Source: Candidatus Rokuibacteriota bacterium (GTDB taxonomy: Bacteria > Methylomirabilota > Methylomirabilia > Rokubacteriales > CSP1-6). From it: a stretch of DNA of 53,256 bases. Where the stretch lies: NCBI GenBank assembly GCA_030647435.1, contig JAUSJX010000007.1, positions 1 through 53,256 of the forward strand. The letters are read 5' to 3'. Both the position numbers and the translations under genes were made by a program. Shown in pieces: positions 18,198-48,222 of the stretch. Below the pieces are notes generated by a model. That model was not told the origin of the DNA, searched no databases, and saw only the letters and a list, made by a program, of their open reading frames with translations. Every line of letters begins with the position of its first letter. Position 1 is the first letter of the stretch.

Positions 18198-18256
18198 CGA
18201 ACGCATCGAGCGGCTCCCGCGACGGAGTCCGAAGTGCTGAACCATTATAAGGAGGC

Positions 18257-18904
18257 ATGCGCACCGTGACTCGAGCAAGCGTACAACCGGGCGAACCAGC
18301 GCCAGACTTTGCGCTCCCGGCCGTCCATCGGGCGGGGGATGTGTCGCTGGCCGATTACCGCGGCCGGAGCCCGGTTCTTCTGGTGCTCCTGCGCGGTTTG
18401 TACTGAGCGTTCTGCCGGCGCCAGCTCGTCGAGCTGGGACGGACCGCGGCGAAGCTCAAGGAGCTCGGTGTCGAGACGCTGGCGGTCGTCGCGTCGCCGG
18501 CCGAGCGCGCCCGCCTCTACTTCCGCTACCGGCCGGTGCCGCTCGCGACGGCCGCCGACCCCGACCTCCTCACGCACAGGGCCTTCGGCGTTCCGAATAC
18601 TTCGATGACGCCGGAGATCTGGGAGACGATCGAGGCGAAGGCGAACGAGCTGGCCCGCAAGCTGAGCGTACCCGTGCAGGCCGGCCAGGCCTACGCCGCG
18701 ATCGACGGGCTGGACGGCTTCGAGAAGGTCGAGACCGACGACACTGATATGCAGCGCCACCAGGAACAATTTACCGGCCATTTCCTGCTCGACCGCGACG
18801 GGGTCGTGCGGTGGGCGAGCATCGAAGGCGCCAACGCCGGCCTCGCCGGCCTCCCCCTTTTTCCCACCGACGAAGAGCTGATGGCGGCGGCGCGGGCGCT
18901 GTGA
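18257..18904 (+). CDS. Candidate selenocysteine-containing redoxin (peroxiredoxin-like, UxxC)
   Basis: AhpC/TSA-type thioredoxin-fold protein, 215 aa if the in-frame UGA at 18404-18406 (codon 50) is read as selenocysteine. A strong ribosome site (AAGGAGG) precedes the ATG. Residues 10-30 carry PGEPAPDFALPAV and 42-56 read LLVLLRGLY-U-AFCRR, so the UGA occupies the first position of what is a CxxC motif in relatives. After the UGA the same frame stays open for 165 codons with typical redoxin sequence (GVETLAVVASPAERARLYFR, GHFLLDRDGVVRW). A hairpin with the geometry of a bacterial SECIS follows. The alternative is a single nonsense mutation in a Cys homolog. Probable role: thiol peroxidase or disulfide oxidoreductase. 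Confidence 0.72.
18415..18442 (+). promoter_or_regulatory. SECIS-like stem-loop inside the redoxin gene
   Basis: CCAGCTC (18421-18427) pairs perfectly with GAGCTGG (18431-18437) around a three-base loop GTC. An outer CCG/CGG helix (18415-18417 with 18440-18442) lies beyond a small internal loop. The apical loop starts 21 bases after the UGA and its first base is G. Both features fit the bacterial SECIS model as I recall it (loop roughly 16-37 bases from UGA, G at loop position one or two). The same bases encode Gln-Leu-Val-Glu-Leu, so a chance palindrome is possible. Confidence 0.55.
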
Positions 18905-18947
18905 TGCCCGGGGGCGATCGGCCCCCCTGCTCCGGACGGTCGCGGCC

Positions 18948-21900
18948 ATGACGTGTCCGGGCTGCGGCTTCGAGGCGCAATCGGACTTCGCGTTCTGTCC
19001 CAAGTGCGGGTGCAAGCTGCCCGCTGCATGCCCGGCGTGCGGCTTCGCCTGCGCGTCCGACTTCGCCTTCTGCCCGAAGTGCGGCGCGGCGCTCTCGGCT
19101 CCCACCGCCGTCGCGCCACCGCCACGCACGGCGGCGCAGCAGCCGGCGCCCACGCCGGCTCCGGCGGCGGACCGCGACGCCGATCGCCGCCGTGTCACCG
19201 TGCTCTTCGCCGATCTCACCGGGTTTACCGCGCTCAGTGAGCGACTCGACCCGGAGGACGTGCGTGCGTTCCAGAATGACCTGTTCCGGATGATGGCTGA
19301 GGAGATCCAGCGGTTCGACGGCTTCGTCGAGAAGTTCGTGGGCGACGCAGTCATGGCGGTCTTCGGCGCCCCGGTGGCGCACGAGGACGATCCGGAGCGG
19401 GCGCTGCGCGCCGGCCTCGCGCTCCTCGAGCGGATCCGGGCGCTCAGCCGCCAGTGGGAGCCGCGCCTCGGTGAGCCGGTGACGCTGCACATCGGCATTA
19501 ACACGGGACCCGTGGTCGCCGGGAGCCTCGGGACCCCCGCCGGCGGCGCGTACGCGGTGACCGGCGACACGGTCAACACGGCGGCACGCCTGCTCGCCGC
19601 CGCACCGCCCGGCACGATTCTCGCGAGTGAGAGCACATACCGGATGGCGCAGCAGCGCTTCGCCTTCGAGCCGCTCGGCGATCTCGCGCTCAAGGGCAAG
19701 TCGGACGCGGTCCGCGCCTATCGCGTGCTCGGCGTGCTCGCGGGTCCGCGGCCCACCCGCGGTCTGGAGGCGCTCGGGCTCGTGGCGCCGCTGATCGGCC
19801 GGGACGATGAGGTCGGCCTGCTGCTCGCGGCGTTCGAGCGGATGACACGCGGGCGGGCCCAGGTCGTGAGCCTCGTCGGCGAGGCCGGCGCGGGCAAGTC
19901 GCGGCTCCTCGCCGAATTCTTTGGGCGCCTCGAAACGGATGGACGCCTCGCCGGCGTGACGGTTCGCCGCGCCGCCTGCTCCTCGCTCGGCGAGCAGCCC
20001 TACGGCGTGTTCGCGACCTTCCTGCGTGACGCCTACGGGATCTCCACGTCGGACACGCTCGAGGTCGCGCGGCGGAAGCTCGTCGAGGGGCTGCAGGCCA
20101 TCGGAGCGAGCGGCGCGGAGGCGGAAGGCGTGGCGCCGCTCGTCGGCTACGTGCTCGGCCTCGAGTCGGGCGAGCGCGTGCCCGAGGTCGAGCCCGAGCA
20201 GCTCCACCGACAGATCGTCTTCGCCGCGCGGACCGTGTTCGAGCGGCGCCTGGCGCAGAGCCCGCTCGTGCTCGTCGTCGAGGATCTCCAGTGGGCGGAC
20301 GCGGCCTCGGTGGAGCTGCTGCGCCAGGTCGTGGACCGGCTCGACGATCGGCCCCTCATGCTCGTGGCGTCACTGCGGCCCCAGTCGGGTGACCGGCCGC
20401 TGGCGCTGAGCCGTGCCGCGCACACGATCATCCGTCTGGCGTCGCTCTCCGACACGGAGACCGAGGCGCTTCTCGCCGGCCTCTTCGGCGCCTCGTCGAG
20501 TGTGATGCCGGCGGGGCTCCGCGCGCGCATCGTGACGCGCGCGGGAGGCAACCCGCTCTACGTCGAGGAGGTCGTCCGCGCCCTGATCGCCGACGGTGTG
20601 CTCGCGCGGGACGGGGACCGCTGGACGTGCCGGGCGGCCGGTACTGCGGTCGAGGTCCCGGTCACGCTCCAGGCGCTCCTCCTCTCCCGACTCGATCGCC
20701 TGCCGTCCGACGAGCGGCGCCTCATCCAGGAGGCGTCGGTGCTCGGGCCGGTCTTTGACGAATCGCTGCTCCGCACGGTGGCGACTGATCCGCTTGGTGT
20801 CGAGGCGCGCCTCGACCGATTGCTGGACGCGGGGCTGCTCCGAGAAATCGGACGTGACGCAGCGGGCCGGCGACATGGGTTCGAGCACGCGCTCGTCCAG
20901 GAGGTGCTCTATCAGAACCTCCTCGTGAGTCGGCGTGTCGAGCTGCACGGGCGTGCGGGCACAGGCCTCGAACGCGCCTGCGGCGACGCCCCGGAGCGCC
21001 TGGAGGACATCGAGGCGCTCGGCCACCATTTCAGCCTGAGCGCCGACCGCGCGCGCGGGGTGCGCTACCTCACGGCCGCGGGGGACTGGGCGCGCGCGAT
21101 CTACGCGAACGACGACGCGGTGCGGCACTATGCGCGCGCGCTCACGACGCTCGCCGAGTGCAGGGATTGCGAACGCGACGTTCTCGTCGTGCGCGAGCGC
21201 CTCGGCGATCTGCTTGGGCCCATGGGCCGCCGGGCCGACGCGCTGGCGCACTACGAGGGGGCGCGGGCGGGCTGGGCGACGGCGGCGGACCACCCGGCGC
21301 AGGCGCGGCTGCTGCGGAAAGTCGCCGCGCTGCGCTGGGACGCCGGAGAGCGCGACGCCGCCCAGGCCTGTCTCGACGCCGCACTGGAGCTCCTCGATGG
21401 CCCGGAGCACATTGAGCGTGCGCACGTCTGCCAGGAGATCGGGCGCTTGGCGTTTCGCAACGGCGACAACGAGCGCGCGATCGAGTGGGCGGAGCGGGCG
21501 CTGGCACAGGCCGAGCGGGTGACTGCGGCGGCCGGTGCGGACGCGGAGGAGGTGCGCGAAGGAGCGACCGCGATCGCCCAGGCGTGCACCACGCTCGGCG
21601 TGGCACTCGCGCGCACCGGGCACCTCGAGGAGGCGGTGCGGCACACCGAGCGGAGTGTCGAGGTCGCGGAGCGTCACGGCCTGCTGCGCGCGGCGTGTCG
21701 CGGCTACACGAACCTCGGCGTGCTCTACAGCACGCTCGATCCCGGCCGGGGGATCGAGACGTGCCAGCGCGGCCTCGAGACCGCGATGAAGATCGGCGAC
21801 CTCGGGTTCCAGTCGCGACTCTATGCGAACCTCGCCGTCGCGTTCTGTGCGCTGACCAATCGCTGCGAGTCGGAGGGCGTGGTGGCCGCGCAGGCAGCGA

Positions 21901-22208
21901 TCGACCTCGACCGGCGGCTGGGCCAGGTCGACCATCTCGCGATTCCGCTGATCGTGCTGGGGCAGATCTATCAGTGTCACGGCGGCAATCCCGCACGAGC
22001 GCTCGAGTGCTATCGCGAAGCGCAGACCCTCGCCGAGGCGGCGGGCGAGCCGCAGCTGCTCTTCCCTTGCTACGATGGTCTCGCCACGCTGTATCTCGAG
22101 ATGGGCGATGAGGTCCAGGCCGAGCGCTTCATGCAAAAGGCACAGGCCGTCTGCGAGCGCACCGGCGTCAGCCCGGACTCGCTGGTGATTTTGCCGTTTC
22201 TCGATTAG
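18948..22208 (+). CDS. Zinc-ribbon / class III adenylate cyclase / AAA ATPase / TPR signalling protein
   Basis: Large cytosolic multidomain protein, 1086 aa. Residues 3-45 hold two tandem zinc ribbons with a repeated SDFAFCPKCG unit, four CxxC pairs in all. A Pro/Ala linker follows, then a class III cyclase domain (about 82-262). Its metal Asp89 (LFADLTGF) and Asp133 (KFVGDAVMAVFG), Lys129 and the Asn210/Arg214 pair (VNTAAR) are all present, so it looks active and adenine-specific. An AAA/STAND-type ATPase has Walker A GEAGAGKS (311-318) and Walker B LVLVVEDLQWAD (about 440-451). The C-terminal ~450 residues are helical TPR-like repeats. Members of this architecture are thought to be nucleotide-gated signalling switches; ligand and target are unknown here. 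Confidence 0.88.
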   Translation: MTCPGCGFEAQSDFAFCPKCGCKLPAACPACGFACASDFAFCPKCGAALSAPTAVAPPPRTAAQQPAPTPAPAADRDADRRRVTVLFADLTGFTALSERLDPEDVRAFQNDLFRMMAEEIQRFDGFVEKFVGDAVMAVFGAPVAHEDDPERALRAGLALLERIRALSRQWEPRLGEPVTLHIGINTGPVVAGSLGTPAGGAYAVTGDTVNTAARLLAAAPPGTILASESTYRMAQQRFAFEPLGDLALKGKSDAVRAYRVLGVLAGPRPTRGLEALGLVAPLIGRDDEVGLLLAAFERMTRGRAQVVSLVGEAGAGKSRLLAEFFGRLETDGRLAGVTVRRAACSSLGEQPYGVFATFLRDAYGISTSDTLEVARRKLVEGLQAIGASGAEAEGVAPLVGYVLGLESGERVPEVEPEQLHRQIVFAARTVFERRLAQSPLVLVVEDLQWADAASVELLRQVVDRLDDRPLMLVASLRPQSGDRPLALSRAAHTIIRLASLSDTETEALLAGLFGASSSVMPAGLRARIVTRAGGNPLYVEEVVRALIADGVLARDGDRWTCRAAGTAVEVPVTLQALLLSRLDRLPSDERRLIQEASVLGPVFDESLLRTVATDPLGVEARLDRLLDAGLLREIGRDAAGRRHGFEHALVQEVLYQNLLVSRRVELHGRAGTGLERACGDAPERLEDIEALGHHFSLSADRARGVRYLTAAGDWARAIYANDDAVRHYARALTTLAECRDCERDVLVVRERLGDLLGPMGRRADALAHYEGARAGWATAADHPAQARLLRKVAALRWDAGERDAAQACLDAALELLDGPEHIERAHVCQEIGRLAFRNGDNERAIEWAERALAQAERVTAAAGADAEEVREGATAIAQACTTLGVALARTGHLEEAVRHTERSVEVAERHGLLRAACRGYTNLGVLYSTLDPGRGIETCQRGLETAMKIGDLGFQSRLYANLAVAFCALTNRCESEGVVAAQAAIDLDRRLGQVDHLAIPLIVLGQIYQCHGGNPARALECYREAQTLAEAAGEPQLLFPCYDGLATLYLEMGDEVQAERFMQKAQAVCERTGVSPDSLVILPFLD

Positions 22209-46858: not shown

Positions 46859-48222
46859 TGGCGAGGGAACGCCCGGTCTATCGCTGCCAGACCTGCGGCT
46901 TCGCCGCGCCGAAGGCCGGCACGTGCCCGGACTGCGCGCGGGCCGGCACGTACGTGGCGCTCGTCGAGGAGCGGCCGGCGCCGTCGCGCTCGGAGCGGCC
47001 CAAGCTCGCCGCCGGCGCCCGACCCGTGCTCATCGGCGACATCGCGGTGACGTCAGGCGAGCGCATCACCACCGGCATCGGCGAGCTCGACCGCGTGCTG
47101 GGCGGCGGTGTCGTCCCCGGCTCGCTGGTGCTGATCGGCGGCGACCCCGGCATCGGCAAGTCCACGCTCCTGCTGCAGGCGAGCCGCTCGCTGTCGGAGC
47201 GCGCCGGACCCGTGCTCTACGTCTCCGGAGAGGAGTCGGCGCCCCAGGTCAAGCTGCGCGCGGACCGGCTCGGCATCTCGCCGCGCGGCCTCTACTTCCT
47301 GGCCGAGACGGATCTCCAGGTGATCGAGGCGCACGCGGCCGAGCTCAAGCCCCGCGCGATCGTGGTCGACTCGATCCAGACCGTTTTCCTGCCCGGGCTC
47401 GAGTCGGCGCCCGGCAGCGTGAGCCAGGTCCGGGAATGCGCGGCGCGCCTCATGCTCTGGTCCAAGGGGCGCGGCACGGCGACGTTCCTCGTGGGGCACG
47501 TCACCAAGGACGGCGCGATCGCCGGGCCCCGCGTCCTCGAGCACCTGGTCGATACGGTGCTCTACTTCGAGGGAGAGCAGCACCACGCGTACCGCGTCCT
47601 GCGCGCCGTCAAGAACCGCTTCGGCTCGACCAACGAGATCGGCGTTTTCGAGATGGGAGAGCAGGGCCTCGCCGAGGTCACGAACCCATCGGGATTCTTC
47701 CTCGCCGAACGGCTCCGCGGCGCCGCCGGGTCGGTCATCGTGTCGAGCCTCGAGGGCAGCCGGCCGCTGCTCCTCGAGCTCCAGGCGCTGGTGACGCCGG
47801 CCAGCTTCGGGACGCCGCGCCGCACCGTGCTCGGCGCCGACTACAACCGGGTCTGCCTGCTGCTGGCGGTGCTCGAGAAGCGGGTCGGGTTTCCTCTGCA
47901 GAGCCAGGACGTCTTCGTCAACGTGGCGGGCGGCGGCCGCGTCACCGAGCCCGCCGCGGATCTGGGCGTGGTCGTGGCGGCGGCCTCAAGCTATCTCGAC
48001 CGCCCCGTGCGGGGCGACACGGTGATCATGGGCGAAGTCGGCCTCGCCGGCGAGGTGCGCGCGGTGGCGGGGTTCGCGGTGCGGCTCAAGGAGGCGGCGG
48101 CCCTGGGCTTCACGGCGGCGGTGGTGCCGCAGAACAATCTCGCGGCGGGCGGCGCGCAGCCCCTGGAAGTCCAGGGGGTGGCAACGGTGGACGAAGCGGT
48201 CAAGGCGCTGTTGGGACACTGA
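46858..48222 (+). CDS. radA: DNA repair protein RadA
   Basis: RecA-like branch-migration helicase in recombination, 454 aa. N-terminal zinc finger CQTCG...CPDC (residues 9-25), Walker A GGDPGIGKST (about 98-107), RadA-specific KNRFGSTNEIG, and a C-terminal Lon-protease-like domain (about 280-454) with VFVNVAGGGRVTEPAADLGV. GTG start at the mlaD stop. Followed by yacL after nine bases. Confidence 0.96.
   Translation: MARERPVYRCQTCGFAAPKAGTCPDCARAGTYVALVEERPAPSRSERPKLAAGARPVLIGDIAVTSGERITTGIGELDRVLGGGVVPGSLVLIGGDPGIGKSTLLLQASRSLSERAGPVLYVSGEESAPQVKLRADRLGISPRGLYFLAETDLQVIEAHAAELKPRAIVVDSIQTVFLPGLESAPGSVSQVRECAARLMLWSKGRGTATFLVGHVTKDGAIAGPRVLEHLVDTVLYFEGEQHHAYRVLRAVKNRFGSTNEIGVFEMGEQGLAEVTNPSGFFLAERLRGAAGSVIVSSLEGSRPLLLELQALVTPASFGTPRRTVLGADYNRVCLLLAVLEKRVGFPLQSQDVFVNVAGGGRVTEPAADLGVVVAAASSYLDRPVRGDTVIMGEVGLAGEVRAVAGFAVRLKEAAALGFTAAVVPQNNLAAGGAQPLEVQGVATVDEAVKALLGH

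Follow-up and report, generated by a model that had tools for sequence, protein, structure and literature searches.

Peroxiredoxin-like selenoproteins, that is, thiol:disulfide oxidoreductases of family PF00578 with a UxxC or UxxU active site, are among the kinds listed in the accessible sections of PMC13188914 and PMC9312934. Selenoproteins annotated as 'Prx-like' also appear in the Sargasso Sea and GOS selenoproteomes (excerpts of PMC1088965 and PMC2398784), and according to the same excerpts the UxxC form had been catalogued by 2005. The function of most prokaryotic selenoproteins is unknown, as stated in the accessible part of PMC13188914.

The redoxin studied here shares with this catalogued kind a match to PF00578 above the gathering score and the motif U50-A-F-C53. 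It is, as modelled, a peroxiredoxin-fold UxxC oxidoreductase and belongs to a known kind of selenoprotein. The preliminary description had called Sec-for-Cys replacement at a redox position the classical pattern of new selenoproteins; the selenoprotein reading is supported by the results below, but the kind is not new, UxxC Prx-like proteins having been catalogued already. Compared with the descriptions of Prx-like proteins in those papers, its subfamily differs in the motif U-[PA]-F-C-R-R, found in most of its selenocysteine (Sec) members, in its length of 215 residues, of which about 150 can be aligned to peroxiredoxins, and in a recurrent nucleotide cyclase partner, which goes unmentioned in the accessible portions of the papers. 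Within the accessible text of the open-licence literature on selenoproteins of Rokubacteria, Methylomirabilota and NC10 and on cyclase–redoxin links, including PMC12013277 (deep-Sep), no description of the pair was found. As far as this literature goes, the redoxin–cyclase pair is new to print, and an earlier notice in Deng et al. 2026 is possible.

The window, meaning the whole analysed stretch of 53,256 nucleotides, is contig C7 of a 5.79-Mb assembly that comprises 176 contigs and is 98.5% complete. The closest named relatives of the redoxin protein come from Candidatus Rokuibacteriota, Methylomirabilota and NC10 MAGs. The redoxin frame occupies positions 18257-18904 of the forward strand (215 codons) and contains a single internal TGA, codon 50 at 18404-18406, in the context LRGLY-U-AFC-RR; the terminal stop at 18902-18904 is also TGA. 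Direct reading of the frame thus agrees with the preliminary description, which had reported one UGA at codon 50 and no other defect. It had also placed AhpC/TSA sequence on both sides of the UGA, and this holds: the read-through translation matches PF00578 (AhpC-TSA) at 1.8e-15 (57.4 bits against a gathering score of 26), and relatives align across both flanks of the TGA with identity up to 63%. The strong ribosome site of the same account is present as a Shine-Dalgarno sequence, AGGAGG, read at 18250-18255 on the forward strand, but a single nucleotide separates it from the ATG at 18257, and the GTG at 18266, 10 nt away, is the better-spaced of the two possible starts. Without read-through, the list of open reading frames of at least 80 aa keeps only a 122-aa piece of the frame (18536-18904), for which a Pfam search returned no match.

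Coding constraint was assessed on each flank of the TGA separately. In comparisons with 10 Sec relatives of at least 50% identity, third codon positions were the most divergent both upstream (0.41-0.73, with 0.12-0.27 for the first two codon positions) and downstream (0.42-0.50, with 0.19-0.35), a pattern as under purifying selection. The mean codon-bias score is weak in the first 49 codons (-0.14, versus +0.45 past the TGA), so the N-terminal part of the protein is supported by homology rather than by codon use. A codon-score scan of the window for other read-through genes gave one strong place, at 48220, where a normal stop seems to precede an in-frame start; the scan is an insensitive test, since it fails to recover the redoxin gene itself (upstream score -0.15).

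Homologues were searched for in 57 genomes of the family, 95 genomes of the phylum and a species collection. Retaining alignments of more than 150 residues with E <= 1e-25, and dropping all other rows, left 45 distinct redoxin genes, counting that of the window. Of these, 16 have UGA as codon 50 and the remaining 29 a Cys codon (UGC in 21, UGU in 8), and codon 53, a TGC at 18413-18415 of the forward strand in the window, encodes Cys in 45/45. The preliminary description had stated that relatives carry Cys at the UGA site and had proposed an alignment for Sec/Cys pairs at codon 50; the 45 genes provide such pairs cleanly. No other UGA occurs within the aligned part of these genes, with frames cut at TAA or TAG, so that genes broken by TAA or TAG could escape the count. 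A 41-row alignment (A1), in which Sec was treated as Cys, shows no variation at position 50 or at C53, R54 and R55. A tree built without the codon-50 column from 15 Sec and 26 Cys rows, two partial rows having been excluded, forces at least three changes between Sec and Cys. Six redoxins from Pseudomonadota plasmids carry Cys at both positions 50 and 53.

These data bear directly on whether the gene is a pseudogene with a nonsense mutation, or whether the TGA is a sequencing error for TGC or TGT. Such a reading would fit a single TGA in an assembly and the low codon-bias score of the codons ahead of it. It is contradicted by the dominance of third-position changes past the UGA and by the full Sec machinery described below, and it was rejected because the codon-50 UGA recurs in 16 distinct genes without a further aligned UGA. 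Recurrence of the same UGA in other genomes, together with Sec/Cys exchange exactly at codon 50, makes sequencing error very unlikely, and we assign this whole explanation almost no probability.

An AlphaFold2 model of the redoxin, computed from A1, reached a pLDDT of 93.7 and a pTM of 0.91, and in it residue 50 sits immediately before the active-site helix 51-69. Structure comparison of the model returned peroxiredoxins and AhpE with Z of about 20 over about 150 residues; the alignable part thus covers about 150 of the 215 residues of the window's protein. When the protein is aligned to human peroxiredoxin 2, C53 falls opposite the Cys of FTFVC, which we take to be the peroxidatic Cys, and residue 50 falls opposite the Thr. 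A Thr or Ser three residues ahead of the peroxidatic Cys (TxxC) is typical of peroxiredoxins. From the structure matches and this alignment, we describe the protein as combining the fold of peroxiredoxins with a UxxC site of thioredoxin type.

Several neighbouring families were compared with the redoxin. AhpE and the 2-Cys peroxiredoxins resemble it in fold and in the correspondence of C53 to the Cys of FTFVC, but a predicted Sec takes the place of the TxxC Thr of peroxiredoxin 2; assignment as a typical peroxiredoxin was rejected, as the predicted model matches in fold and TxxC is absent. Oxidoreductases of the DsbE/ResA/TlpA type have CxxC at the same place as the redoxin's UxxC, and the best PDB sequence match of the redoxin is the DsbE-like 3gl3. 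In contrast to these proteins, the redoxin chain is longer, and its N-terminus shows no membrane anchor or signal peptide by eye. The best NCBIfam match is SelL/SelL-related (NF040769; 7.8e-17, residues 15-122). The SelL motif is UxxU; membership was rejected at 61.5 bits versus a cut-off of 120, the redoxin having UxxC, not UxxU. The protein would be a probably cytosolic thiol oxidoreductase of the thioredoxin/peroxiredoxin fold with a U-x-x-C active site, in which Sec50 may attack and Cys53 resolve.

The genome possesses the components required for such a protein. A tRNA-Sec, with anticodon tca according to ARAGORN, scored 71.3 bits (cut-off 47), and SelB (380 bits), SelA (584 bits) and SelD (343 bits) all exceed their curated cut-offs; the check for these four genes that the preliminary description had proposed therefore found every one of them. 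The genes selA, selB and tRNA-Sec are clustered within 5 kb on contig C56. Within the family, 8/8 genomes with a Sec-form redoxin at E <= 1e-28 have selA and tRNA-Sec above cut-off. Five MAGs without selA (G023, G025, G041, G042 and G052) also show redoxin-superfamily matches with one TGA, and 11 of the 57 family genomes gave no tRNA-Sec match; we conjecture that missing contigs account for the absence of Sec machinery in those MAGs. The selD gene of the window's own genome (G000, contig C98:94090-95046; loci L018 and L084) contains one in-frame TGA, so selenophosphate synthetase may itself be a selenoprotein there.

Given this machinery, SelB and Sec-tRNA-Sec would decode the UGA at codon 50, probably aided by a stem-loop just 3' of it. 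A bacterial SECIS is predicted at 18407-18447 of the forward strand. Its upper stem of 7 bp (CCAGCUC/GAGCUGG, 18421-18427 and 18431-18437) closes the loop GUC at 18428-18430, 21 nt past the UGA, in a fold of the 44 nt from the UGA; the energy of the upper hairpin is -10.0 kcal/mol. The bSECIS constraints given in the accessible part of PMC13188914 are a loop of 3-9 nt, a stem of 4-16 bp, G in the first two loop positions, a spacing of 16-37 nt and an MFE <= -7.5; the hairpin falls within all of them with a loop of 3, a stem of 7, G first, a spacing of 21 and -10.0 kcal/mol. The preliminary description had suggested a SECIS search at the UGA; an Rfam search of 18200-19000 gave no match at E up to 5, and for this gene alone the hairpin is not significant against dinucleotide shuffles (z -0.47) or synonymous-codon shuffles (p 0.09). 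In view of the dinucleotide-shuffle result, the RNA fold alone is not taken as proof.

Across relatives, SECIS-type hairpins are stronger in 14 close Sec genes than in 27 Cys genes (mean -8.2 versus -3.3 kcal/mol, p 0.0005, uncorrected for relatedness), in a scan that accepted loops of 3-8 nt at a distance of 11-30 nt from the UGA, which differs from the published 16-37. An upper hairpin of <= -7.5 kcal/mol occurs in only 9/14 of the close Sec genes and also in 3/27 Cys genes. Since several near relatives have the loop 3 nt nearer the UGA, there is no covariation to cite, and a common SECIS helix was abandoned. The SECIS evidence is weaker than that from the machinery and the Sec/Cys column.

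The statistical weakness of the hairpin for this gene would fit a UGA that serves as a regulated stop or that is read as another amino acid, whether by near-cognate suppression or under an altered genetic code. This explanation is countered by the presence of tRNA-Sec, SelA, SelB and SelD and by the position of the UGA at the catalytic Cys column. A general re-reading of UGA is further disfavoured because the redoxin gene itself ends in TGA, where it would not stop, and we regard the explanation as highly improbable. Selenocysteine insertion at codon 50 is the reading we retain, and the redoxin gene very probably encodes a selenoprotein.

The gene is not isolated among the redox genes of its genome. 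Searches with PF00578 located 33 places, 18 of them with exactly one in-frame TGA, the window redoxin among them. For the 17 of these that were examined, the TGA falls in the active-site region (domain position 33-42), its contexts being UxxC, xxxU and UGC. One-TGA AhpC/TSA places lie on contigs C22, C29, C159, C170, C139, C134, C115, C9, C65, C137 and C81 (loci among L089-L117). The AhpD-type family PF02627 has 17 places, 6 with one TGA, whose position was inspected in one. Together with selD, this gives at least 25 selenoprotein candidates, spread over three families. Judged from these in-frame TGAs, the redox selenoproteome of the genome is very large; the accessible part of PMC13188914 cites Deng et al. 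2026 for a MAG of Methylomirabilota that has 63 selenoprotein genes. The window gene is thus a well-supported addition to a catalogued kind of selenoprotein, in a phylum with a recently reported very large selenoproteome.

A partner gene, absent from the preliminary description, begins 43 nt past the redoxin stop. It spans 18948-22208 of the forward strand and encodes a 1086-aa protein in which a class III adenylate/guanylate cyclase domain is accompanied by a double zinc ribbon, an AAA_16 ATPase domain and TPR repeats; the two genes are most likely co-transcribed. The genomic neighbourhood of 44 distinct redoxin genes was examined with the thresholds used above (alignments of more than 150 residues, E <= 1e-25), tandem copies being counted singly. 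A cyclase homologue lies within 1.2 kb of 26 of them (11/16 Sec, 15/28 Cys). The redoxin is downstream on the same strand in 21 of these pairs, upstream in 2 (the window and L078) and on the opposite strand in 3. For the remaining 18 redoxins no cyclase lies this close; several are at contig ends, but L025, L028 and L029 have 3 kb on both sides.

The association is tighter when viewed from the cyclase. With at most 8 candidates scored per genome, 26 cyclase orthologues (E <= 1e-150) were found in 24 of the 95 phylum genomes. A redoxin is present in the flanks (up to 1.5 kb) of 25/26, belonging to this subfamily in 21 cases and solely to a second type (FTKGMACPFC) in 4; the single orthologue without a redoxin has its 3' end cut by the contig. 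By hand count, 24 of the 95 genomes have the cyclase, 27 the redoxin (E <= 1e-25) and 22 both, a co-occurrence with a Fisher value of 9e-15 when genomes are taken as independent, which they are not.

Individual loci show further arrangements. Tandem Sec and Cys redoxin copies stand behind one cyclase in L023, L024, L026, L124, L125 and L126, offering a natural Sec/Cys comparison inside one cell. In L071 (1907-6946), one cyclase lies between two Sec redoxins, both on the strand opposite to it, and in L072 (952-4258) a cyclase cut by the contig end is adjoined by three Sec redoxin genes that together span no more than 3.3 kb. The window's own genome has a second, Cys-only arrangement (L078 2656-7069, contig C135), composed of a redoxin, a cyclase 39-42% identical to the window's and a different redoxin of the FTKGMACPFC type. 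The latter type is also found beside the cyclase in G030, G031, G032 and G055.

The pairing extends to plasmids of Pseudomonadota, where a redoxin lies within about 520 bp of 18/18 cyclase orthologues (E <= 1e-100). These cyclases share 49-55% identity over 81-100% coverage, and 13 are from Sinorhizobium, 12 of them from one species. The redoxin itself was seen in 134 plasmid records, Rhizobium accounting for 99, and only 18 of the 134 carry this close cyclase orthologue. No cyclase was found within 4 kb of the redoxin in Rhizobium johnstonii 3841, or within 1.2 kb in Ensifer sesbaniae and Variovorax WS11. On a plasmid of Mesorhizobium sp. WSM1497 (L182), three annotated cyclase genes surround the redoxin, with a Rab-type GTPase gene adjoining. 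Since plasmids of Sinorhizobium, Phyllobacterium, Mesorhizobium and Variovorax carry the pair in its Cys form, the question comes within reach in culturable bacteria.

The redoxin could be a selenoprotein and yet act as a general antioxidant or repair reductase for peroxide, methionine sulfoxide or protein disulfides, the cyclase being a mere neighbour through shared regulation. The Prx/AhpE fold would suit such a role, as would the presence in L023 of a gene for methionine sulfoxide reductase (PF01625) close to the pair, the existence of tandem and lone redoxin copies, the plasmid copies that mostly lack the close cyclase orthologue, and the many other AhpC/TSA places with UGA, which point to broad Sec use. 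Set against this, cyclase orthologues stand beside a redoxin in 25/26 and 18/18 cases, in two phyla and in several gene orders, which goes beyond what we would expect from shared stress regulation. We consider a general reductase a real but minority possibility. That the redoxin is a selenoprotein and also sets the thiol state of the cyclase, taken as one statement, appears somewhat probable to us. A partner kept over two phyla provides a testable substrate for the selenoprotein.

The cysteines of the cyclases were compared between 23 paired proteins, five partial ones (L169, L171, L172, L173 and L177) having been left out, and 11 unpaired paralogues, drawn from 21 other cyclase matches in the window's own genome. 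The 1.5-kb flanks of the unpaired paralogues, searched with two redoxin queries, gave no match at E up to 1e-3. C344, C917, C967, C1010 and C1041 are kept in 23/23 paired cyclases and C939 in 21/23; among the 11 unpaired paralogues, C344 is present in 4, C1041 in 7 and C917, C967, C1010 and C939 in none. All of these but C344 belong to the TPR region (21696-22070 of the forward strand in the window). The Phyllobacterium and Mesorhizobium plasmid cyclases keep all six, C939 included. Counted over the final 300 residues, paired cyclases have 6-11 Cys and unpaired ones 2-7, and 4 of the 65 invariant columns in the C-terminal part of the paired proteins are Cys. In the three cyclase motif stretches examined, two Asp and an Arg are kept in 23/23 and an Asn in 22/23; we assume these to be the metal-binding and transition-state residues of the cyclase. 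As the paired cyclases form one clade, the conserved cysteines may mark descent rather than a redox function.

From the neighbourhood and the conserved cysteines, we infer a redox-to-cyclic-nucleotide pair. In this scheme, the redoxin would set the thiol state of the cyclase, with the invariant cysteines of the TPR region or those of the zinc ribbon as candidate targets, and oxidant or thiol status could be converted through the cyclase into a change in cyclic nucleotide. In its full form, a redoxin with Sec or Cys in Methylomirabilota, and with Cys in the rhizobia and Variovorax examined, would control a class III cyclase through its TPR cysteines; this we propose only tentatively. If true, selenium-dependent thiol chemistry would feed cyclic-nucleotide signalling.

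Elsewhere in the genome, an AhpD-type (CMD) frame with a CxxU motif (NHCDYU; L134 82-708) lies near one of the unpaired cyclase paralogues, at contig C97:126675-129851, and this region is perhaps a second selenoprotein–cyclase neighbourhood.
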